The notes under the pieces were generated by a model, which had not been told where the DNA came from, ran no database searches, and worked only from the letters and a program-made list of their open reading frames with translations. 24,012 nucleotides of DNA from a virus. Positions 6,266 to 13,028 of this stretch are shown piece by piece. Position 1 is the first letter of the stretch. Each line of letters begins with the position of its first letter. The position numbers and the translations under genes were made by a program. The stretch is from the IMG/VR virus record IMGVR_UViG_3300012469_000009, positions 1 through 24,012 of that record; one strand, given 5' to 3'.

Positions 6266-6323
6266 CTGGTGCCCTTTCATATAAATGGCCTACGGCCCTA
6301 CTATATCCAGTGGCACGTATTGT

Positions 6324-6372
6324 GGGTGTTCCCCACACCCCTGGTTCAGTGGCACCCGCCCTAAGGGGCGGT
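6324..6372 (-). other. Two hairpins in the 5' leader of the terminase transcript
   Basis: GGGTGT...ACACCC (6324-6340) and a 10-bp stem with one bulge closed by a TAAG loop (CCGCCC TAAG GGGCGG core, 6348-6372) lie between the putative late promoter and terL. They could regulate translation or stability of the late mRNA, or terminate read-through. No function is shown. Confidence 0.45.
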
Positions 6373-6409
6373 GCCTGGAACGGAGGAGGGATTCCGAGAA
6401 GGAGACCTT

Positions 6410-6422
6410 TATAGTATAACTA
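6410..6422 (-). promoter_or_regulatory. Candidate late promoter element TAGTTATACTATA
   Basis: On the minus strand the AT-rich motif TAGTTATACTATA lies about 145 bp upstream of terL and points into the late operon. A near copy, TAGTTATATATA, lies at 6533-6544 on the plus strand, so the motif is divergently duplicated in an otherwise GC-rich region. It does not resemble a host -35/-10 pair and could be a target of the phage sigma-like factor. This is inference from two copies. Confidence 0.35.
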
Positions 6423-6466
6423 GTAGAACCTGTAGACTCCGTGTACGGTCGTGCCTGGTGCACACT

Positions 6467-6491
6467 GGGCAGGCCGCTCAGGCGGCTGCCC
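6467..6491. other. GC-rich hairpin between divergent promoter-like motifs
   Basis: GGGCAG-g-CCGC TCAG GCGG CTGCCC forms a 10-bp stem with one bulged G and a four-base loop. It has no T-run on either side, so it is terminator-like at best. It separates the two TAGTTATA motifs. Confidence 0.4.
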
Positions 6492-6506
6492 CTGTGCCTA
6501 GCGCAC

Positions 6507-6518
6507 AAGTGTACACTT
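6507..6518. promoter_or_regulatory. Perfect 12-bp palindrome AAGTGTACACTT
   Basis: A perfect dyad in the divergent intergenic region, 15 bp before the plus-strand TAGTTATA motif. It is the size and shape of a dimeric repressor operator. No cognate regulator can be identified from the sequence. Confidence 0.35.
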
Positions 6519-6532
6519 CTTCACTAGTCTCA

Positions 6533-6544
6533 TAGTTATATATA
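6533..6544 (+). promoter_or_regulatory. Candidate promoter element TAGTTATATATA
   Basis: Plus-strand counterpart of the late-promoter motif at 6410-6422, pointing rightward into the non-coding region. Shared core TAGTTATA followed by TATA. See the minus-strand entry for reasoning. Confidence 0.3.
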
Positions 6545-6580
6545 CCCATCACTCGTGTCTGGCAGGGACAGGGTAATCTG

Positions 6581-6596
6581 TGTGATCTGGGTCACG
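6581..6596. promoter_or_regulatory. Crp-type palindrome (TGTGA-N6-TCACG)
   Basis: The half-sites TGTGA and TCAC are separated by six bases and contain GGTCAC on the right. This is the Crp/Fnr-family operator form; as I recall it, the Streptomyces Crp motif is GTG-N6-GNCAC, which this matches. A second site lies 55 bp downstream. Confidence 0.5.
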
Positions 6597-6605
6597 TGCC
6601 CACAT

Positions 6606-6622
6606 CCCTTGTGGGACAAGGG
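6606..6622. other. Perfect hairpin between the two Crp-type sites
   Basis: CCCTTGT GGG ACAAGGG forms a 7-bp stem with a 3-base loop exactly between the two Crp-type palindromes. It may be an additional operator or simply a small hairpin. Confidence 0.3.
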
Positions 6623-6635
6623 CTCTGACGGCTGG

Positions 6636-6651
6636 TGTGACCAGGGTCACA
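6636..6651. promoter_or_regulatory. Perfect Crp-type palindrome (TGTGA-N6-TCACA)
   Basis: TGTGACCAGGGTCACA is a perfect TGTGA-N6-TCACA dyad. Its centre is 55 bp from the previous site, about five helical turns, so two dimers would sit on the same DNA face. A third copy of the type lies at 16419-16434. Confidence 0.55.
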
Positions 6652-7090
6652 GGCATTTATGATGGAAATTTAATGGGACTCACACACTCACTCTCCGCCC
6701 GATTTAACAATGCCCGGGTAGGTTTGTACCAGCGAGCGCCACTCTGTGTGCTTGTGTCCGAACCGCGTGCCATGTCCTAGTTGTCTGCTCATCTGAGCGT
6801 GGGCTAGCTCATCCGAGTCAATACCTATGCACTGGGATGCATACTGATACATACGGCAGCACACTGTATATACACGCGTGCGCCTGTGGATCCATGGCCA
6901 ACAGCAGCATCTGCCTTGATATCCACGGATTGTGGCCGCATCTGCCACGGATACAGGTAATATAACGCTGTAATGCCATGGAATCAGTGGTTGGAGACTG
7001 TCTTATCGTCATAGTGACGCATCCATCCAGGCTCCCCATACCGGACATCCAGGGTGTACCAATCACCCGTCTAGGCCCTCTGACCTGCAA
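6652..7090. other. Non-coding stretch without a recognised function
   Basis: About 440 bp with no reading frame that has both a credible ribosome-binding site and protein-like composition. I see short palindromes (for example TGTATATACA near 6865) and a repeated GCATCTGCC (about 6909 and 6939). Nothing supports a gene, tRNA or origin. Confidence 0.5.
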
Positions 7091-7093
7091 AGC

Positions 7094-7121
7094 TTGACTC
7101 TACCGCCAGGCTGAGTAGCGT
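7094..7121 (+). promoter_or_regulatory. Candidate housekeeping-type promoter upstream of boxA-1
   Basis: TTGACT (7094-7099), a 16-bp spacer and TAGCGT (7116-7121) fit the actinobacterial housekeeping consensus TTGAC(A)/TAnnnT. Transcription would begin near 7128 and run through the first boxA-like motif and the 16S-like segment. Confidence 0.45.
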
Positions 7122-7258
7122 TCTCCTTGTCAACAACACGCCCCGCTAGCACAGGGGGCAAGGGGTTGGCGCCGTGTCTGATCGAGTACGTGACGGACTG
7201 CCTTGGGTCTTTCGATCTAGGTAACGCGTCAGCAGTACGGGGCACGGGCAGCGGTATC

Positions 7259-7273
7259 GTTCCTTGAGAACTC
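7259..7273 (+). promoter_or_regulatory. boxA-like element 1
   Basis: GTTCCTTGAGAACTC matches the conserved motif found before 16S and 23S genes in actinobacterial rRNA operons, which contains boxA, the site where NusB/NusE load for antitermination. It lies 124 bp upstream of the 16S-like segment, on the same strand. The match is from memory of rRNA leaders and needs alignment. Confidence 0.55.
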
Positions 7274-7382
7274 CATACGCACCACCAAGCCACACGGCCC
7301 GCTAAGGCGGTCCGAGGCAGTAGTCCGATGCTAACCCTTTGGGGATGCGGACACGGTCTCAGATCGTCGCACAGGGCCTGCG

Positions 7383-7494
7383 GAGTAACACGTGAGTACC
7401 TTCGGGGCTTGCGGCTGATCAGCTAGTAGGTGAGGTAACGGCTCACCTAGGCTCCGACCAGTATCCGGCCAGAGATGGCGTCAGGACCGCACAG
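7383..7494 (+). ncRNA. 16S rRNA-like segment: miniature of the 5' domain (h6/h7, h11, h12 region)
   Basis: GAGTAACACGTGAGTA (7383-7398) equals the conserved 16S stretch near E. coli position 105. After only 18 bases comes a 36-base block (7417-7452) that, from memory, matches E. coli 16S near 225-260 at 34 of 36 positions, including the hairpin TAGGTGAG / CTCACCTA with a 7-base loop. Similarity continues to about 7494 (GTATCCGGCC, then GAGATGGCG), closest to actinobacterial 16S. The roughly 105 bases that separate the first two blocks in real 16S are missing, replaced by a TTCG-containing turn. The 8-bp stem is perfect here, so the structure seems maintained. It cannot be a functional 16S rRNA. 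Confidence 0.7.
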
Positions 7495-7503
7495 CACAAC
7501 GGC

Positions 7504-7532
7504 TTGACAGTGCGCATGGAGTCGGCTAGGTT
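7504..7532 (+). promoter_or_regulatory. Strong housekeeping-type promoter (tandem copy 1)
   Basis: TTGACA (7504-7509), exactly 17 bp, TAGGTT (7527-7532): near-consensus for the principal sigma factor of Streptomyces. The expected start region reads CGACCACGGCACA, repeated after the second promoter. It points at boxA-2 and the early genes. Confidence 0.6.
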
Positions 7533-7579
7533 CGACCACGGCACAGCGAGAGGGAGCCGAAAGGCCAGAGCCTCTAGTC

Positions 7580-7608
7580 TTGACAGGCTCGCAAGAGTCT
7601 GGCAGTAT
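7580..7608 (+). promoter_or_regulatory. Housekeeping-type promoter (tandem copy 2)
   Basis: TTGACA (7580-7585), 17 bp, then CAGTAT (7603-7608), a weaker -10. It is followed by CGCACCACGGCACA, nearly the same initial sequence as copy 1. The -35 boxes are 76 bp apart and the ACCACGGCACA motifs 77 bp apart, so the promoter unit is a tandem duplication. Confidence 0.5.
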
Positions 7609-7696
7609 CGCACCACGGCACAACGCAGCACCCGGAGGATAGGTCACAATCCAGAGCCCTTGAGGGGGCTTGAAAGGGCCTCCGAAGGCAGTGTTT

Positions 7697-7718
7697 GTTC
7701 CTTGATAACTCAACAGTG
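7697..7718 (+). promoter_or_regulatory. boxA-like element 2
   Basis: GTTCCTTGATAACTC followed by AACAGTG resembles the actinobacterial rRNA leader/spacer motif (TTTGAGAACTCAA...AGTG) more fully than element 1. One base of the small GTTC/GAAC dyad of element 1 is altered, as expected if sequence rather than pairing is conserved. It lies downstream of the tandem promoters, as boxA does in rRNA operons. Confidence 0.6.
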
Positions 7719-7954
7719 AGCTTGTGATGGATGCCGCCCATAATTGGGAGTTGGCTTCACTTGGGCTGGATAGGCTGACCTACAACCCTTCGGGGCCGGT
7801 CGCCGACAGGGCTCGTGATGACTGACGTACACGTGAGCATCTCTCTAGATTAGCGAGGGCGTAAGCCTGATCATGTCTGAACCTAGGCCACGCTAGAGAC
7901 ACGGTAAAACCATGGGATCAGCGGTATTCATCACCTCTTCCTTCCTTGTTTGGT

Positions 7955-7984
7955 GGGCTGCTAGTCCTTCGGGGTTAGCGGTCC
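7955..7984 (+). other. 13-bp hairpin with UUCG tetraloop
   Basis: GGGCTGCTAGTCC (7955-7967), loop TTCG, GGGTTAGCGGTCC (7972-7984). All 13 positions pair when four G-U pairs are allowed. G-U pairs do not pair in DNA, so the dyad makes sense as an RNA structure. Confidence 0.6.
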
Positions 7985-8082
7985 ATCAGAGTGGGGGGAG
8001 GGTGCATCACCCGGAAGCGAAGGCGCTGTCTAGAATGTATAGGCAGTAGCTGCCAAGGGCCGTGCATCCCTCCTCCGTTCGG

Positions 8083-8106
8083 CGCACACACCGCAAGGTG
8101 TGTGCG
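8083..8106 (+). other. 10-bp hairpin with GCAA tetraloop before the first early gene
   Basis: CGCACACACC GCAA GGTGTGTGCG is a perfect stem with a GNRA loop. It ends six bases before the AAGGGAGAGAAC ribosome-binding block of the gene at 8126, so it could shield or present that site, or mark an mRNA 5' end after processing. Confidence 0.6.
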
Positions 8107-8125
8107 GATCAAGGGAGAGAACACT

Positions 8126-8527
8126 ATGACAGTCTTCGGTTTCGCCTCCGGTGAGTACTCTTACGCCGACTCCGGCTGGTTCGTGGAGTGGGCGGACAGG
8201 GACGGATATCCGGCGTCAGCGCGAAACTACGCTCACGAGGTTTTCAGCTACGACGAAGACCTTGACGAGACGACCTACAACATCCTCGATGAGCTGGACG
8301 ACTACTTCGGCATTGGCAAGTGGCACTTCTCCGATGATGCCAGCCGTTCCGTCGCGGTCGCCAACGAGGACACGGAAGCCTTTCCTTTCACGGTCCGGCA
8401 ACGCGTCGTCCTGGTTCTGAAGTACCACGACGGAGTCAACGGCTGGACAGAGAAGCCGTACCGCCTGCTCCGCACAGAGCCCCTCATGGCTCCCGCCGTG
8501 GAGCCGAAGGTGTTCCACGAACTGTGA
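8126..8527 (+). CDS. Early protein of unknown function (133 aa)
   Basis: First protein gene after the long leader. ATG 8126 follows the block AAGGGAGAGAAC that precedes almost every gene up to 12.7 kb. The protein is acidic and soluble, rich in aromatic residues at its start (FGFASGEYSYADSGWFVEW), with an acidic middle (DEDLDETTYNILDELDDYFG). No motif is recognised. As the promoter-proximal early gene it may take part in host takeover, which is inference from position. Confidence 0.8.
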   Translation: MTVFGFASGEYSYADSGWFVEWADRDGYPASARNYAHEVFSYDEDLDETTYNILDELDDYFGIGKWHFSDDASRSVAVANEDTEAFPFTVRQRVVLVLKYHDGVNGWTEKPYRLLRTEPLMAPAVEPKVFHEL

Positions 8528-8577
8528 CCACTCTTGACGTACGTCTAGTACGTACGTCTTGACGGCATCACAGCCGA
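8523..8577 (+). repeat. Composite intergenic element, copy 1
   Basis: Layout: CTGTGACCA, a perfect 9-bp hairpin GACGTACGT CTAGT ACGTACGTC (8536-8558), TTGA, then the short hairpin CGGC ATCACA GCCG (8563-8576). The same layout occurs at 8746, 9820 and 10329 with other stem sequences. Confidence 0.65.
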
Positions 8578-8591
8578 TCAAGGGAGAGAAC

Positions 8592-8744
8592 ATGAACGCT
8601 GACGACACCATCCGGGAACTGATCGCAGAATACTGCGAGATTGCCCCGGAGGACGTCAAGGGCAGCGTCGTTCGTGGATACACGATCGATGACATGCCCT
8701 GGGATGAGTGGGACGACGCAGTAAACGGCCCCCGTAACGACTAG
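8592..8744 (+). CDS. Small acidic early protein (50 aa)
   Basis: ATG 8592 directly follows AAGGGAGAGAAC, which decides the start over an upstream in-frame ATG. The sequence is acidic: IRELIAEYCEIAPEDVKG, then MPWDEWDDAVNG. The first part resembles a short helical acyl-carrier-like or anti-restriction-type acidic protein only in composition; no family can be assigned. It lies between two composite hairpin elements. Confidence 0.72.
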   Translation: MNADDTIRELIAEYCEIAPEDVKGSVVRGYTIDDMPWDEWDDAVNGPRND

Positions 8745-8745
8745 T

Positions 8746-8846
8746 CTGTGACTAAGGTGAGCGGACGGGCTTCGGCCCGTCCGTTGACACGGCATCACAG
8801 CCGAACAGGTGAGCACGTAAGTGCGATCCGAATAAGGGAGAGAACA
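8746..8846 (+). repeat. Composite intergenic element, copy 2, plus GCAC-GTAA-GTGC module
   Basis: CTGTGAC, a 9-bp UUCG hairpin (CGGACGGGC TTCG GCCCGTCCG, 8762-8783), GTTGACA, the CGGC ATCACA GCCG hairpin (8790-8803), then a module AGGTGAGCACGTAAGTGC whose GCAC GTAA GTGC is a GNRA hairpin, then the ribosome-binding block. The module recurs at 9157 and 11637. Confidence 0.65.
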
Positions 8847-9098
8847 ATGGCAAAGCTTGAGACCGAAACTCAGGTGACTTACGTCCTCACTCTCGACGCA
8901 GAGGAAGCGGGTTACCTCAAGGATCTTCTCAGCGCGCACATCGCTGGCGGCATGACCTCTGGCGTCCAGCCTCTCGGGCGTATCCGGGTGGCGCTGGCGG
9001 ACGTGGAGCGTATGTACCTGTACGACAGCCGAGCGGACGCTACGAATCACCCGGTTCTGTGGCGTAGCTCGGTAGAAGCGGGTTACCGCGAGGATTAA
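8847..9098 (+). CDS. Early protein of unknown function (83 aa)
   Basis: ATG 8847 follows AAGGGAGAGAACA. N-terminal strand (TYVLTLDAEEAGYLKDLLSAH) then a helix-rich middle (LGRIRVALADVERMYLY). Small proteins with a VLTL..EEA.YL..LL pattern are frequent in actinobacteriophage early regions, but no function is known to me. A separate small gene flanked by hairpin elements. Confidence 0.75.
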   Translation: MAKLETETQVTYVLTLDAEEAGYLKDLLSAHIAGGMTSGVQPLGRIRVALADVERMYLYDSRADATNHPVLWRSSVEAGYRED

Positions 9099-9197
9099 GC
9101 GACGGTTGAGCGTACGGGCTTTGGCCCGTCCGTTCACTCAGCCTGCTTAAGACTGAAACAGGTGAGCACGTAAGTGCGATCCGACAAGGGAGAGAAC
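9099..9197 (+). repeat. Intergenic hairpin plus second GCAC-GTAA-GTGC module
   Basis: A hairpin ACGGGC TTTG GCCCGT (9114-9129), a shortened relative of the UUCG hairpin at 8762, is followed by the module AGGTGAGCACGTAAGTGCG and the ribosome-binding block. The CGGC ATCACA GCCG part is missing here. Confidence 0.55.
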
Positions 9198-9812
9198 ATG
9201 AACAACAGCCTAGGTACCATCTGGATGTGTCAGGACTGTATGCACCACCACGCCAATGGCGAGTGTGGCTCCTGTCACGACGACCTTGGCCACGAGGGCG
9301 GGGATCCGATGAGCATCATCGGTGACGACGTTCACGTGACTATGGGAATGGTCGCAGAGGAGCACGCAGAAGACTGCGATCCCGAGGAGTACTGTGAGTG
9401 CGAGACCGTGGAATACAGCAAGCTTCCGTGCGAGGGTTGCGGTTCGGTCTACTACGGCGAGCGTCACGCTTTCACCCTTTGGGCGATTCGTGACCACCGT
9501 CTCAACACACTCGGTCAGATCAAGGACGCCCACAAGGGTTTTTGGTTTGACAAGGAAACGCTGCGATGGTTCAAGTCTCGCGTCTCGGAGACGGTCTACC
9601 CGACCTTCTCAACTACGGCCGGAACGCTTTTCGTCTCCAGTGAGATGTTCGAGGACGGCAGGCGTTACACCGTACGCTGTGCGACTCTGGTACTAGACGA
9701 TATCGGAGTCTCTGACTGCGACATCAGCACTATCGGCGAGTACGGCCAGTACAAGACACGCAACGGAGCACACGCTGCTGCGAAGCGTATCCGCGACAAG
9801 CACAAGGTGTGA
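9198..9812 (+). CDS. Early protein with multi-cysteine zinc-binding N-terminus (204 aa)
   Basis: ATG 9198 is set by AAGGGAGAGAAC. Residues about 10-90 hold many potential zinc ligands: CQDC, HHH, CGSC, an acidic segment with CDPEEYCEC, and LPCEGCGS. The C-terminal half (from about residue 95) is a separate fold with WFDKETLRWFKSRVSETVY and an RYTVRCATLVLDD strand region, ending in a basic helix (AAAKRIRDKHKV). The N-terminus looks like one or two treble-clef or rubredoxin-like knuckles. A nucleic-acid or host-protein binding role is plausible; no family is assigned. Confidence 0.75.
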   Translation: MNNSLGTIWMCQDCMHHHANGECGSCHDDLGHEGGDPMSIIGDDVHVTMGMVAEEHAEDCDPEEYCECETVEYSKLPCEGCGSVYYGERHAFTLWAIRDHRLNTLGQIKDAHKGFWFDKETLRWFKSRVSETVYPTFSTTAGTLFVSSEMFEDGRRYTVRCATLVLDDIGVSDCDISTIGEYGQYKTRNGAHAAAKRIRDKHKV

Positions 9813-9819
9813 ACAGGTT

Positions 9820-9940
9820 CTGTGACCAGTGTTGCCAGCCGTCTTGAACGGCTGGTTTCACGGCATCACAGCCGAAACGAAGACAGTGAAACTGTCTTCT
9901 AAGCGTCCAGCTTCGCTGGAACGCGAACAAGGGAGAGAAC
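9820..9940 (+). repeat. Composite intergenic element, copy 3, with two extra hairpins
   Basis: CTGTGACCA, an 8-bp hairpin CCAGCCGT CTTGA ACGGCTGG (9835-9855), the CGGC ATCACA GCCG hairpin (9861-9874), then GAAGACAGT GAA ACTGTCTTC (9879-9899) and a CCAG CTTCG CTGG hairpin with an outer GCG/CGC (9904-9925), ending in AAGGGAGAGAAC. Four hairpins in 120 bases. Confidence 0.6.
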
Positions 9941-10333
9941 ATGTACAAGGAAATCGCTGACAAGCTGGTCTCTGCTCTCCGTTCCGGCGAGTATGAGCAG
10001 GCCAGCGGTCGGCTCCGTAACGAGACGGGACACTGCTGCCTCGGAGTCCTCTGCGACTTGTATGACAAGGAGCAGATCGAGGCTGGCAACGGAACGGGAT
10101 GGACCGTCGTTTCCCCTTCGGTCGTGTATTCCGTTCGCTACGAATACCACGGCGACAGGGGAGTCCTTCCTTCGGCCGTGCAGAAGTGGGCTGGTATGTA
10201 CACTGACAGCGGTGCGTACGACTACGATGCCGACACGGGCGTTCACAATGACTCCCTGGCCGGTGACAACGACAGAGGTGCATCGTTCGCAGAGATCGCC
10301 GACTTCGTAGAAGAGCAGTACAAGGTTCTGTGA
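9941..10333 (+). CDS. CCLGVLC-family early protein, paralogue A (130 aa)
   Basis: One of three paralogues here (others at 11678 and 12131). Shared landmarks: a helical start ending SGEYEQ (residues 15-20), GRLR, the invariant CCLGVLCDL (32-40), LPSAVQKWAG (about 76-85) and a C-terminal GASFAEIADFVEEQ helix. The CCLGVLC motif recurs in small phage proteins of unknown function; paired cysteines may bind a metal or be buried. Start set by AAGGGAGAGAAC. Parts of the gene are identical at DNA level to its paralogues, suggesting recent duplication or gene conversion. Confidence 0.82.
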   Translation: MYKEIADKLVSALRSGEYEQASGRLRNETGHCCLGVLCDLYDKEQIEAGNGTGWTVVSPSVVYSVRYEYHGDRGVLPSAVQKWAGMYTDSGAYDYDADTGVHNDSLAGDNDRGASFAEIADFVEEQYKVL

Positions 10334-10394
10334 CCACTCTTGGTGCATCTCTAGTAGGTGCACCTTGACGGCATCGCAGCCGAAGGGAGAGAAC
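10329..10394 (+). repeat. Composite intergenic element, copy 4
   Basis: CTGTGACCACTCTT, hairpin GGTGCATCT CTAGT AGGTGCACC (10342-10364), TTGA, CGGC ATCGCA GCCG (10369-10382), AGGGAGAGAAC. Flanks and the loop CTAGT equal copy 1, while both stem arms differ yet still pair over 9 bp. Confidence 0.65.
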
Positions 10395-10505
10395 ATGCAC
10401 TTTCACAAGTGGTCCAACTGGACGACTCCAGTCAAGGGGTTCATCTATTACTACCAGACTCGCTCCTGCCTCAAGTGTGGCAAGGGTCGGGTGAGGATTT
10501 ACTAA
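10395..10505 (+). CDS. Mini zinc-knuckle protein A (36 aa)
   Basis: ATG 10395 lies right after GAAGGGAGAGAAC. The peptide has HKWSNW near the start and CLKCGKG near the end, so one CxxC pair plus His could bind a metal. Stop and next start overlap (TAATG). It resembles the next gene (H-K/R-W-S, aromatic residues, C-x-K-C-G), so the two look like a tandem duplication. Confidence 0.6.
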   Translation: MHFHKWSNWTTPVKGFIYYYQTRSCLKCGKGRVRIY

Positions 10506-10621
10506 TGTGCTTCCCAGGACTGCACCGATGGAGCCACCCGGCTCCGTTAGGTGACTACGGTAACCAGTGGTTCAAGATCTGCGAGAAGTGTGGCGCAACA
10601 AAGATCATCGCCGAGCGTTGA
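10505..10621 (+). CDS. Mini zinc-knuckle protein B (38 aa)
   Basis: Starts at ATG 10505 inside the TAATG overlap with the previous gene and lacks its own ribosome-binding block, implying translational coupling. Contains LHRWSHPAP, GDYGNQWFKI and CEKCGATKI. Same order of landmarks as protein A. No known function. Confidence 0.58.
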   Translation: MCFPGLHRWSHPAPLGDYGNQWFKICEKCGATKIIAER

Positions 10622-10655
10622 GCATGATGCAGGGCCTACGGGCCCTGCTTCGTGT
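10620..10655 (+). repeat. Hairpin family B, copy 1
   Basis: GAGCATGAT followed by GCAGGGCC TACG GGCCCTGC (perfect 8-bp stem) and TTCGTGT. The same block follows two later genes (11587 and 12067). Placed directly after stop codons, it could be a terminator, a 3'-end stabiliser or a processing site. Confidence 0.6.
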
Positions 10656-10687
10656 CCTCTGTTCGGAGGAAATACAAGGGAGAGAAC

Positions 10688-10921
10688 ATGCAGGAGTTTC
10701 GTACTATCGCGGACCTGTCCAAGGAATCCGGACTTTCTCAGATGAAGGTCCGGAACATCCTCAAGGACGTGACTCCGGAGATCAAGGTCGGCCGTAGCGA
10801 GGGATATCACCCCGACGCGCTGCGGTCTGCCCTGATCAACAAGCTCGGTCCCGAGCTTCGGTACCTCAACGTCCAGGACTACGCAAGCAACATCCTCGCT
10901 GGTTTCAGTCCCAAGGACTGA
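10688..10921 (+). CDS. Small helix-turn-helix-like early protein (77 aa)
   Basis: ATG 10688 is fixed by AAGGGAGAGAAC. The N-terminus IADLSKESGLSQMKVRNILK (about residues 7-26) reads as a helix-turn-helix: helix, tight turn at SGLS, recognition helix. It is followed by an EIKVGRSEGYHPDAL segment like the wing or linker of MerR/excisionase-type proteins, and a helical C-terminus. It is therefore a candidate early transcription regulator or excisionase-like DNA binder, inferred from motif shape only. Confidence 0.72.
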   Translation: MQEFRTIADLSKESGLSQMKVRNILKDVTPEIKVGRSEGYHPDALRSALINKLGPELRYLNVQDYASNILAGFSPKD

Positions 10922-11029
10922 TATCAGGGACACCGGCCCAAGTGTTTAGGGTGATCACTGTCCAATCCATCTTGACAGGGACAGTGTTCGCCTGGTTCAC
11001 TTGAACCAAGGTTCGACAAGGGAGAGAAC
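10922..11029 (+). other. Intergenic region with two hairpins
   Basis: CACTGTCC (about 10956) pairs with GGACAGTG (about 10978), and GGTTCA CT TGAACC lies just upstream of the ribosome-binding block. Sequence differs from the other intergenic families. A TTGACA (10973-10978) lies inside but I see no matching -10. Confidence 0.45.
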
Positions 11030-11581
11030 ATGATCAAGGCACTGGAACGTCAGGCTTCCAACGGCGAGTACGTTCTCGCCTCGGAACTGGACGTCCTCGC
11101 TACCGCTGTCTACAAGGTGATGGGGTTCGAGCCGAAGCGGTTTTCCGTGGACGTCTGGCCCGAGCGCGAGCCGTCTCTGAATGACACGCTCGCCGAGGCG
11201 GCTCCGCTCCACCAGGAGTTTCACGACTCGTGGGAGGACGCCAAGTCTCGTCTGGAACAGATCTTCAAGGAGATCGAGGCTGGTACGTTCGCGTACAACC
11301 CGCCGATGCTTCCGGACGAGACCGTCACGGACGACGCTGTCAAGTTCGAAACCGTCGGCGACTACCGGGTTTCTACTGTCGGCCTCAGTCTCCTGCCCAA
11401 GATGTACAACAAGGGCGACGCTGAGTACGAGACTGCTGTGTTCCGGGCATACGACAACATGGTCGTGCACACTGAGCGCTCCGTCACTCGTGAGGGCGCG
11501 GAAGCGGTGCACGACGCTATTGTGCTAGACATCCTGGCCAACGAGTTCAAGGGTAACGGTAAGGGCTGGGGCGACTTCTGA
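11030..11581 (+). CDS. Early protein of unknown function (183 aa)
   Basis: ATG 11030 follows CAAGGGAGAGAAC. An all-helical look: MIKALERQASNGEYVLASELDVLATAVYKVMG, then a segment with HQEFHDSWEDAKSRLEQIFKEIEAG typical of a long helix, a central strand region (ETVGDYRVSTVGLSLL) and ETAVFRAYDNMVVHTERSVTREGAEAVHDAI. The last segment is reminiscent of small phage proteins sharing a YETMVF pattern; no function is known to me. Confidence 0.78.
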   Translation: MIKALERQASNGEYVLASELDVLATAVYKVMGFEPKRFSVDVWPEREPSLNDTLAEAAPLHQEFHDSWEDAKSRLEQIFKEIEAGTFAYNPPMLPDETVTDDAVKFETVGDYRVSTVGLSLLPKMYNKGDAEYETAVFRAYDNMVVHTERSVTREGAEAVHDAIVLDILANEFKGNGKGWGDF

Positions 11582-11586
11582 TAGGT

Positions 11587-11677
11587 AGCATGATGCAGGG
11601 CCTACGGGCCCTGCTTCGTGTGGTTTATCAGAACCGACAAGGTGAGCACATAAGTGCGATCCGACAAGGGAGAGAAC
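11587..11677 (+). repeat. Hairpin family B copy 2 plus third GCAC-NTAA-GTGC module
   Basis: AGCATGAT, GCAGGGCC TACG GGCCCTGC, TTCGTGTGGTTTATCAGAACC, then AGGTGAGCACATAAGTGC (loop ATAA instead of GTAA) and AAGGGAGAGAAC. It joins family B to the module seen at 8804 and 9157, showing these elements are modular. Confidence 0.62.
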
Positions 11678-12061
11678 ATGGACGAGCGAGTCAAGGCTCT
11701 GTGGATCGACGCTCTCAAGAGTGGCGACTACGAGCAGGGCGAAGGGCGCCTCCGGCGTACGCGTTGGAATGCCCCTCCCTCTTACTGCTGCCTCGGAGTC
11801 CTCTGCGAAATTGCCGTCAAGGATGGTCTTGACGTCAAGGTCGACCCTGTATACGGGACCTACAACGACGAGGGTGCCGTGCTTCCCAGCCGCATCCAGG
11901 AGTGGGCTGGGCTCGGTAGCTACGATGGGACCTTCGGCGTCGACCTCAAGGTCAATGACTCGAACGGAGAAGAATGCATCGTTAGCAACCTCATCAGCCT
12001 TAACGACGCGGCTGGTTACACGTTCGAACAGATCGCAGACGTGATCAACGAACAGTTCTGA
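11678..12061 (+). CDS. CCLGVLC-family early protein, paralogue B (127 aa)
   Basis: Second paralogue. SGDYEQGEGRLR (about residues 15-26), CCLGVLCEI (37-45), LPSRIQEWAGL, and a C-terminal NDAAGYTFEQIADVINEQF. ATG 11678 is chosen over an in-frame upstream ATG because it directly follows AAGGGAGAGAAC. The stretch coding CCLGVLC is nearly identical in DNA to paralogues A and C. Function unknown. Confidence 0.82.
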   Translation: MDERVKALWIDALKSGDYEQGEGRLRRTRWNAPPSYCCLGVLCEIAVKDGLDVKVDPVYGTYNDEGAVLPSRIQEWAGLGSYDGTFGVDLKVNDSNGEECIVSNLISLNDAAGYTFEQIADVINEQF

Positions 12062-12066
12062 TCAAT

Positions 12067-12120
12067 AGCATGATGCAGGGGCGCAAGTCCCTGCTTCGTG
12101 TGGTTTATCAGAACCGACAA
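12067..12120 (+). repeat. Hairpin family B, copy 3 (changed stem and loop)
   Basis: Same flanks as copy 2, but the hairpin reads GCAGGGGC GCAA GTCCCTGC. The two loop-proximal pairs and the loop differ (UACG replaced by GCAA), while pairing is kept with one G-U. This points to selection on RNA structure. Confidence 0.62.
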
Positions 12121-12130
12121 GGGAGAGAAC

Positions 12131-12559
12131 ATGAACAAGGAAATCGCAAAGATCTGGACTGCCGCTCTTCGCTCCGGTGAGTATGGGCAGGCGACGGGCG
12201 TGCTGGTCGAGATCAACCCTGCGGACGGCGAGAAGGTAGGATACTGCTGCCTCGGAGTCCTCTGTGACCTCGCCGTCAAGGCAGGGGTTCCTATCAGCGT
12301 CGATGGTCCGACGCTCTGCGAAGCCGACGATCCCGACGATGAGGAGTACTGGAACGGCGTTGAGTACGACAGCAGCGACGCGCTCCTGCCCGATTCGGTC
12401 ATGAAGTGGGCGGGCCTGCGAAGCGACGACGGAAAGCTGTTCGGCTCCGGCGACGGCTTCTATGGTAACGAAAATGACACGCTCGCTGCCCGGAACGACG
12501 GCGGCGCATCGTTCGCAGAGATCGCGGAACTGATCGACACGAACGTCGATGCCCTGTAA
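12131..12559 (+). CDS. CCLGVLC-family early protein, paralogue C (142 aa)
   Basis: Third paralogue and the longest, with an insertion (VEINPADGEKV) before CCLGVLCDL (39-47) and a longer acidic middle (CEADDPDDEEYW). Keeps LPDSVMKWAGL and GASFAEIAELI. DNA identity with paralogue A is high around the CCLGVLC codons and around the GASFAEIA codons. Start at ATG 12131 after AAGGGAGAGAAC. Function unknown. Confidence 0.82.
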   Translation: MNKEIAKIWTAALRSGEYGQATGVLVEINPADGEKVGYCCLGVLCDLAVKAGVPISVDGPTLCEADDPDDEEYWNGVEYDSSDALLPDSVMKWAGLRSDDGKLFGSGDGFYGNENDTLAARNDGGASFAEIAELIDTNVDAL

Positions 12560-12560
12560 C

Positions 12561-12614
12561 CTAGTGAGTAGGATGGCGCACGCCTCCGGGCGTGCTCCGT
12601 CTGGCCTACTAGGG
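12561..12614 (+). other. Long imperfect intergenic hairpin
   Basis: CTAGTGAGTAGG pairs with CCTACTAG (about 12604-12611) around an inner GCACGCC / GGCGTGC stem with a small loop. Together they form one extended hairpin filling the gap between two genes. Its sequence is unrelated to families A-C. Confidence 0.5.
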
Positions 12615-12635
12615 CCAGGATGAAAGGGAGAGAGC

Positions 12636-13028
12636 ATGAACGAGGTTCGTATCGACTACGCCAAGGCTGTCGACATGATCAATCAGGAGATCGCCAAGGA
12701 GTCGCCGGATTACGTGTACCAGATAGGGGAAATTTACCGCTCGTGCTCCAACACAACGGAGCTGCCCGATGGTACCGTGGTCGGGTCGTGCGTCGTGGGC
12801 CGCGCCCTCATCTCCGCTGGCGCCGACGCCAAGTTTCTTCACAAGGAGGCCCAGTTCAAGGACGTTGAGGGCGCTCTCGCGCTTCTCGACGGCTTCTACG
12901 TGACCCCCAAGGCGTTCGAGTTCCTGGCCAACGTTCAGGCGCGACAGGACATGGGCACCACATGGGGAGACGCCACGAAGCGGGCGCAGGAAAGCGTCTC
13001 TAAGTTCGACCTCAGGGACGAGTTCTAA
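12636..13028 (+). CDS. Early protein with CVVG motif (130 aa)
   Basis: ATG 12636 follows AAAGGGAGAGAGC, a slightly altered ribosome-binding block. Contains CSNTTELPDGTVVGSCVVGRALISAGAD (about residues 33-60). The SCVVGRAL part is similar in layout to CCLGVLC in the three neighbouring paralogues, so it may be a distant relative. The C-terminal part (FLANVQARQDMGTTWGDATKRAQES) is helical. Function unknown. Confidence 0.78.
   Translation: MNEVRIDYAKAVDMINQEIAKESPDYVYQIGEIYRSCSNTTELPDGTVVGSCVVGRALISAGADAKFLHKEAQFKDVEGALALLDGFYVTPKAFEFLANVQARQDMGTTWGDATKRAQESVSKFDLRDEF

Follow-up and report, generated by a model that had tools for sequence, protein, structure and literature searches.

How an intergenic element can keep constant flanks while the fully paired hairpin stem between them differs wholly from copy to copy is the question raised by the early region of a 24,012-nt viral stretch, IMG/VR record IMGVR_UViG_3300012469_000009 (hereafter the window; positions follow its numbering). 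A preliminary description of this DNA had noted four such copies and had taken the exchanged stems as a sign of selection for an RNA hairpin and against identical stems. In the present study, we found that two features had been missed, namely, a pseudoknot between CUGUGA and UCACAG in the constant parts and the occurrence of the same architecture in other early gaps.

Structure of the Four Copies

The pattern CTGTGA-N25..55-CGGCATCRCAGCCG matched four times in the window and not once in 100 dinucleotide shuffles, and the common frame with exchanged stems was confirmed at 8522, 8746, 9820 and 10328. CUGUGA in the 5′ constant part and UCACAG, which lies within the 3′ constant part (CGGC-AUCACA-GCCG), are reverse complements of each other. 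The helix CGGC/GCCG (S2) closes a 6-nt loop, and five of the loop bases pair with UGUGA (S1). Judged from this complementarity, each copy is a predicted H-type pseudoknot whose first loop contains the variable hairpin (P2), and the S1 and S2 helices should be able to form at once. In P2, a small internal loop (GA/UG or UU/UU) separates a lower part of 2-3 bp from the variable stem. The copies are as follows.

8522..8576, + strand: copy 1 (p=0.0025 against shuffles; covariation); S1 UGUGA at 8523-8527, with the upstream stop codon (8525-8527) inside it; P2 at 8532-8562; S2 at 8563-8566/8573-8576; the loop AUCACA pairs with S1
8746..8803, + strand: copy 2 (p=0.0075); S1 at 8747-8751; P2 at about 8757-8788; S2 at 8790-8793/8800-8803; the stop codon TAG (8742-8744) lies just 5′
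9820..9874, + strand: copy 3; S1 at 9821-9825; P2 hairpin; S2 at 9861-9864/9871-9874
10328..10382, + strand: copy 4 (p=0.005); S1 at 10329-10333, with the stop codon (10331-10333) inside it; P2 at about 10338-10368; S2 at 10369-10372/10379-10382

Copies 1 and 4 have the loop CTAGT and all flanks in common and differ in their 9-bp stems, as previously described, with one G.U pair in copy 4; the S2 loop of copy 4, AUCGCA, makes a single U.G pair with S1. The stem of 8 bp given for copy 3 was correct and is extended by a terminal G.U pair, whereas that of copy 2, given as 9 bp, has 11 bp and a UUCG loop. Two additional hairpins lie between copy 3 and the ribosome-binding site (RBS), and the top-scoring fold of this gap (gap 4) in the shuffle test described below was an alternative over a longer span rather than this pseudoknot.

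Covariation in Related Phages

A search of phage records with the early region of the window by blastn gave no match because the elements and genes diverge too fast, and pattern searches were therefore used. A pattern with exact 5′ and 3′ parts retrieved 16 viral-contig stretches, approximately half of which were true members, i.e., gaps ahead of AAGGRGAGA sites; the remainder were chance matches inside genes. A second pattern placed constraints on S2 and the ribosome-binding site and none on S1. Most of the matches listed for the loose pattern TGACCA..CGGCATCANNGCCG (viral contigs) and for GTGACCA..CGGCATCACNGCCGA (bacterial genomes) were chance matches in coding sequence, and an RBS and start codon followed 0 of the 119 stretches listed in the bacterial-genome scan.

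Members were aligned in 41 fixed columns (alignment A1, 39 distinct elements), in which 99.0% of the S1 cells were paired and double compensatory changes were present at 5/5 pairs. Controls in which S1 was slid were 23-53% paired, with a covariation score of at most 0.06 against 0.534 for S1. P2 showed double changes at 8/8 counted pairs. The types of S1 and loop were UGUGA/UCACA, UGUGA/UCGCA, AGUGA/UCACU, ACUGA/UCAGU, AACGA/UCGUU, UGAGA/UCUCA, UGUAG/CUACA and UGAGG/CCUCA; the counts of UGUGA and AGUGA are partly biased by the search patterns, and the UGAGA, UGUAG, UGAGG and AACGA types are unbiased. Compensatory changes in S2 were observed across copies and gaps (CGGC/GCCG, CAGCA/UGCUG, CAGUAU/AUACUG, UGGC/GCCA, GGUU/AACC, UCCUC/GAGGA and CUGGCC/GGCCAG), while within the CGGC family S2 is near-invariant because it was fixed by the search.

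When 50 sites were chosen blind to S1, on the basis of S2, the adjacent hairpin and CYA, S1 was fully paired in 42, and dealing the loops anew 2000 times gave a mean of 10.7 and a maximum of 20 fully paired S1. The other eight comprised seven chance sites and one recombinant. In one orthologous gap of three annotated phages, the stop codon has changed and the loop with it (Manuel, UAGCA/UGCUA; Immanuel3, UGAGU/ACUCA; FlowerPower, UGAAC/GUUCA). As expected of an H-type pseudoknot, the loop thus pairs with an outside strand, and compensatory changes occur in both helices.

Selection on an RNA structure, as proposed in the preliminary description, is strongly supported by the covariation of P2, by conserved G.U pairs, which point to RNA rather than DNA, and by the strand, since the sense strand scores and the antisense strand does not. 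Unpaired substitutions in relatives, named at that time as the result that would speak against it, were looked for and not found except in an evident recombinant, L016 at 5858 (relatives are denoted by L numbers). This site (+5858) is a natural chimera of two types, in which a UGUAG strand stands with a UCUCA loop and S1 is broken; its composition may be regarded as evidence of recombination between copies.

The suggestion that identical stems are selected against was not supported. Single genomes can contain byte-identical P2 hairpins, as in L008 at 7024 and 7968, in L017 at 9563 and 11232, and, for CCAGATGGAGCGGCCACCTTCGGGTGGCCGTTGCAA, four times in the one contig behind L027 and L036; in addition, copy 3 of the window has a nearly identical counterpart in L010. 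Different binding partners for the stems do not need to be assumed, as only the shape is kept, and P2 drifts freely as a spacer hairpin.

The Same Architecture in Other Early Gaps of the Window

The early intergenic gaps of the window were then compared with dinucleotide shuffles, under two conditions, namely, that S1 lay near the stop codon and that P2 adjoined S2. Nine of the 11 gaps reached p<=0.01 with unrelated sequences, and the Fisher value was ~8e-12 for the sense strand and 0.08 for the antisense strand. Besides the four copies, the following elements were recognized.

9095..9156, + strand: probable degenerate member, seen by eye and not detected by the strict scan; S1 UUAAG at 9095-9099 (stop codon UAA inside) with CUUAA at 9146-9150; P2 related to that of copy 2; S2 UCAGCC/GACUGA at 9138-9143/9151-9156, with one C.A mismatch
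10612..10670, + strand: element of other sequence (p=0.0025); S1 CGAGCG at 10612-10617 with UGUUCG; P2 at 10623-10654; S2 UCCUC/GAGGA at 10655-10659/10666-10670
10939..11008, + strand: element of other sequence (p=0.0075), of a family also present in L010 and L013; S1 CAAGUG at 10939-10944; S2 UGGUU/AACCA at 10993-10997/11004-11008; loop CACUUG
11578..11635, + strand: element of other sequence (p=0.010); S1 CUGAUA at 11578-11583 (stop codon UGA inside); S2 GGUU/AACC at 11622-11625/11632-11635; loop UAUCAG
12058..12115, + strand: element of other sequence (p=0.0025); S1 CUGAU at 12058-12062 (stop codon UGA inside); S2 GGUU/AACC at 12102-12105/12112-12115
12561..12618, + strand: element of other sequence (p=0.0025); S1 CUAGUG at 12561-12566; S2 CUGGCC/GGCCAG at 12601-12606/12613-12618; loop UACUAG

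A TTGACA box is present inside P2 of the CAAGUG/CACUUG family of gaps (window 10941-11008, L010 near 7288 and L013 near 1049) and is possibly an internal promoter.

Distribution and Placement

A scan of relatives covered 191 ribosome-binding sites and was blind to stop codons. The architecture was detected at p<=0.05 at 102 of these sites. By class of gap, it was present in 83/110 of those of 40-130 nt, in 5/19 of the short ones and at 8/39 sites without an upstream open reading frame. Of the 83 gaps, 34 had an S1 that overlapped the stop codon (9.5 expected), and the distance from the end of S2 to the next RBS was 5-9 nt in most gaps. In five annotated phages (Manuel, RosePharie, Immanuel3, FlowerPower and Abafar), 21/45 gaps of the right-arm early block were positive at p<0.05 and almost none of those in the replication block or among the late genes; the control phages TM4 and phiC31 gave 1/13 and 2/16, respectively. 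The leader or operon end examined is without the element, and the operon end of Abafar has an annotated terminator. By eye, the form was looser in some other gaps of the annotated phages, in which loops were longer or paired with each other.

Streptomyces phages of Beephvirinae are ~78% DNA-identical to the window at the terminase, endolysin and portal genes. Of 15 element-bearing contigs, 14 encode a terminase that is 57-92% identical to that of the window, and the feature therefore belongs to one lineage.

A common layout emerges from these comparisons: S1, of 5-6 nt, lies at or beside the upstream stop codon and is predicted to pair with the last 5-6 nt of the S2 hairpin loop, P2 lies between S1 and S2 and abuts S2, and the next RBS follows 4-9 nt 3′ of S2. 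As far as base pairing shows, shape and position are kept and sequence is not, and the predicted architecture occupies most early-operon gaps of 40-130 nt in this phage lineage. Across dozens of gaps, one fold has been kept while nearly every base changed; therefore, the fold itself must matter.

Two further types of gap were observed. In a kissing-loop type, the 5′ strand lies in a small hairpin loop of its own and pairs with a later hairpin loop with compensatory changes (CGC-ACYGGCU-GCG or CGCG-GUGAGY-CGCG; L023 42860-42962, L024 42618-42717, L151 ~2513 and L026 ~26692). The gap at L021 18666-18827 and its orthologs in L022-L025 span 160-240 nt; a long-range fold, GUGAAGGAUGCACAGG...CCUGUGCAUCC, is conserved in them, and they also carry the motif AUAAGUA. 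Gaps of this type may possibly be internal promoters with a structured leader.

Comparison With Known Systems

The PeSL cassettes of T4-type phages are stem-loops in early-gene gaps that bear traces of shuffling and carry early promoters and terminators. The present elements are likewise repeated stem-loop elements in early gaps with traces of shuffling, but have no conserved promoter. A translational pseudoknot of IncI-complex plasmids, described for repZ/repBA by Asano and Mizobuchi in 1998 (as cited in PMC10286972), reportedly lies beside the RBS and is linked to translation of an upstream frame; repZ is reportedly a single regulatory locus under antisense RNA control. In contrast, the element described here occupies most gaps of an operon, without a sign of RBS sequestration.

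In the timP leader, a loop pairing 5′ of the RBS is supported by covariation and is required for translation (PMC11228461). Loop pairing 5′ of the RBS with covariation is common to both cases; however, the timP structure is located in the 5′ untranslated region of one toxin gene and is neither intercistronic nor associated with a stop codon (PMC11228461). The SAS/ESAS of cluster K mycobacteriophages are repeated intergenic inverted repeats 5′ of a conserved RBS motif at many early genes (PMC3203893, PMC11373665). The DNA sequence of ESAS, GTGTTGA...TCAACA in two copies, is conserved and is now read as a SigA-type putative promoter (PMC3203893, PMC11373665). Although a repeated intergenic element directly 5′ of the RBS of early genes is shared with this system, the ESAS sites of TM4 show no such pseudoknot, and conserved 17-bp inverted repeats with -35/-10 hexamers are not found in the window family.

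The closest parallel is provided by ribosome termination structures (RTS), stable mRNA structures directly after stop codons that are enriched at intergenic distances of at least 25 nt and depleted in overlaps (PMC7518266). In a synthetic operon, reinitiation was shown to depend on such structures, and they are proposed to insulate cistrons (PMC7518266). Similar to RTS, the element is a structure after the stop codon, in gaps, with shape kept over sequence, and its distribution follows theirs, i.e., after the stop codon, in gaps and not in overlapping pairs (83/110 against 5/19 short gaps in the scan of relatives). On the other hand, RTS are defined by general folding stability without a pseudoknot, stop-to-loop pairing or a defined architecture, and phages are not mentioned (PMC7518266).

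Searches of the literature on pseudoknots in intergenic or intercistronic phage gaps and on Beephvirinae found no prior description, with most subscription journals outside their coverage. We rate the element as new in its defined pseudoknot architecture; intercistronic structures as such are known.

Possible Function of the Element

Because no sequence is kept, recognition of the element by a sequence-specific protein or by a shared trans-acting RNA is unlikely, and a shape-sensing agent is needed, namely, the ribosome, an exonuclease or RNA polymerase. Translation is the best fit to the position of the element, which lies between the stop codon and RBS, mainly in gaps and not in overlapping pairs, and is absent from the leader or operon end examined. 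We favor, with slightly less than even confidence and by analogy, the reading that the element may serve as a sequence-free, RTS-like insulator between cistrons, in other words, a pseudoknotted form of RTS. While its structure, position, generality and lineage are observed, we infer that the ribosome finishing gene n would open S1 and run up against P2, and that S1 would snap onto the S2 loop after release of the ribosome, thereby closing the gap. The closed gap would keep post-termination ribosomes from wandering, and the next RBS would be presented for its own initiation. P2 would be a replaceable spacer, and its stems could therefore be exchanged wholesale. Termination-reinitiation fails beyond ~20-40 nt (PMC10666635), and gaps of 55-65 nt would thus be uncoupled unless bridged.

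Several points weigh against this reading. Insulation is inferred from position and from the analogy with RTS, and since RTS require just a hairpin, the pseudoknot is left unexplained. S1 begins a few nucleotides past the stop codon in several copies, extra hairpins stand ahead of the RBS in two window copies, and the compactness of phage gaps may make any element abut the stop codon and RBS. The general scan was designed after the first examples, such that its p-values are heuristic, and all carriers with a detectable terminase come from one phage lineage. We propose more tentatively, as a possibility that falls short of probable, that the pseudoknot is a stop-codon clamp, i.e., a dedicated device in most early gaps that would be opened by each terminating ribosome, reclose, and set the passage of ribosomes between cistrons.

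A role in mRNA processing or stability is the strongest alternative to insulation, even though we consider it unlikely. The compact fold, in which P2 is stacked on S2 and S1 with ~20 bp in total, would block exonucleases or mark a cleavage site, and the early RNA would be cut into, or decay as, separately stable messages. Shape-only conservation in most early gaps is consistent with this role, S1 over the stop codon would shield the very end of each open reading frame, and the timP leader pseudoknot also raised mRNA levels (PMC11228461). However, the tight spacing of 4-9 nt to the next RBS is not required for stability, and the leader or operon end examined lacks the element, with an annotated terminator at the operon end of Abafar.

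A translational coupling relay is more doubtful. The pseudoknot would bring the stop codon near the next RBS or recruit ribosomes, such that the translation of gene n promotes that of n+1, as is reported for the repZ pseudoknot in IncI plasmids. The element spans the stretch from stop codon to RBS exactly; ordinary reinitiation fails beyond ~20-40 nt (PMC10666635), so that a 55-65 nt gap would need bridging; and pseudoknots beside an RBS can be essential for initiation (PMC11228461). On the other hand, S1 cannot pair while a ribosome sits on the stop codon, and the RBS shows no sign of being hidden when the pseudoknot is open: its computed mean unpaired probability was 0.56 in the nested, 0.58 in the pseudoknotted and 0.56 in the ribosome-occupied state (50 gaps; nested-fold model only).

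The two helices may instead alternate in a switch of two nested folds, S1 closing a long hairpin around P2 or S2 forming. For copies 1, 2 and 4, RNAfold returned the fold with S2; copy 3 was given the nested form closed by S1. Nevertheless, we regard a switch as improbable: the partner of S1 lies wholly within the S2 loop, so both helices are compatible, and many other gaps have all of the 6-nt loop paired, as in loop-loop complexes. A recombination cassette or DNA-level repeat for early-gene shuffling, with incidental hairpins, is very improbable, since, in spite of the chimera in L016 at 5858 and the identical modules that recur in one genome, most gap elements share no sequence and hence allow no homologous exchange, structure is kept without identity, and covariation and strand asymmetry point to RNA.

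Other known classes were considered and rejected. A promoter or ESAS-like element would show hexamers, none of which are conserved in the family alignment. An intrinsic terminator would have a U run after a G+C-rich hairpin; instead, CGGC/GCCG or an A-rich spacer and the RBS follow. The window at 8500-12700 gave no covariance-model match to any Rfam family, ribozymes and riboswitches included, up to E=5. Regarding a readthrough signal, the stop codon is inside S1 in some copies and 5′ of S1 in others, and the AACGA variant has none. An RBS-sequestering switch of the repZ type was rejected as RBS accessibility was the same between states (50 gaps, nested-fold model).

How ribosomes are separated or handed over between the genes of an operon is an open question that the element addresses, and its natural set of gaps offers a ready means to assay whether insulation, coupling or RNA stability is at work. 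The favored insulator may also be of use as a sequence-free part for synthetic operons. As a caution, searches by primary sequence or nested folds miss such elements.

Other Features of the Early Region

The block of small early genes starts at 8126 on the + strand, and a purine-rich site, AAGGGAGAGAAC, lies ahead of most of them.

8580..8589, + strand: example of the shared purine-rich RBS AAGGGAGAGA, which follows each element (repeat families D1/D2)
8834, 9186, 9929, 10383, 10676, 11018, 11666, 12119 and 12623, + strand: approximate positions of further RBS

A stretch similar to the 5′ domain of 16S rRNA (GCGGAGTAACACGTGAGTA...GATCAGCTAGTAGGTGAGGTAACGGCTCACC) is present at 7370-7520, within 1.8 kb of noncoding DNA at 6281-8125; it scored 71 bits with Rfam and is 81% identical to E. 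coli 16S rRNA over 62 nt. A scan of this region by itself did not report the stretch, which was also not seen in three relatives; its sequence raises the question of whether it may be a ribosomal RNA mimic in the early-operon leader.

TTGAGAACTC(AACAGTG) motifs occur 5′ of the early operon in Beephvirinae, mostly paired and ~400 nt apart. They were located at 7264 and 7702 in the window, -781/-1187 in L021, -832/-1236 in L022, -762/-1165 in L023, -903/-1308 in L025 and +23770/+24386 in L026, in which the spacing is ~615; a single motif was found in L024 (-1070), L020 (-5461) and L034 (-1817). The motif resembles the leader or boxA-like motif in rRNA operons of actinobacteria, and this similarity suggests that the early transcript is subject to antitermination of the ribosomal type.

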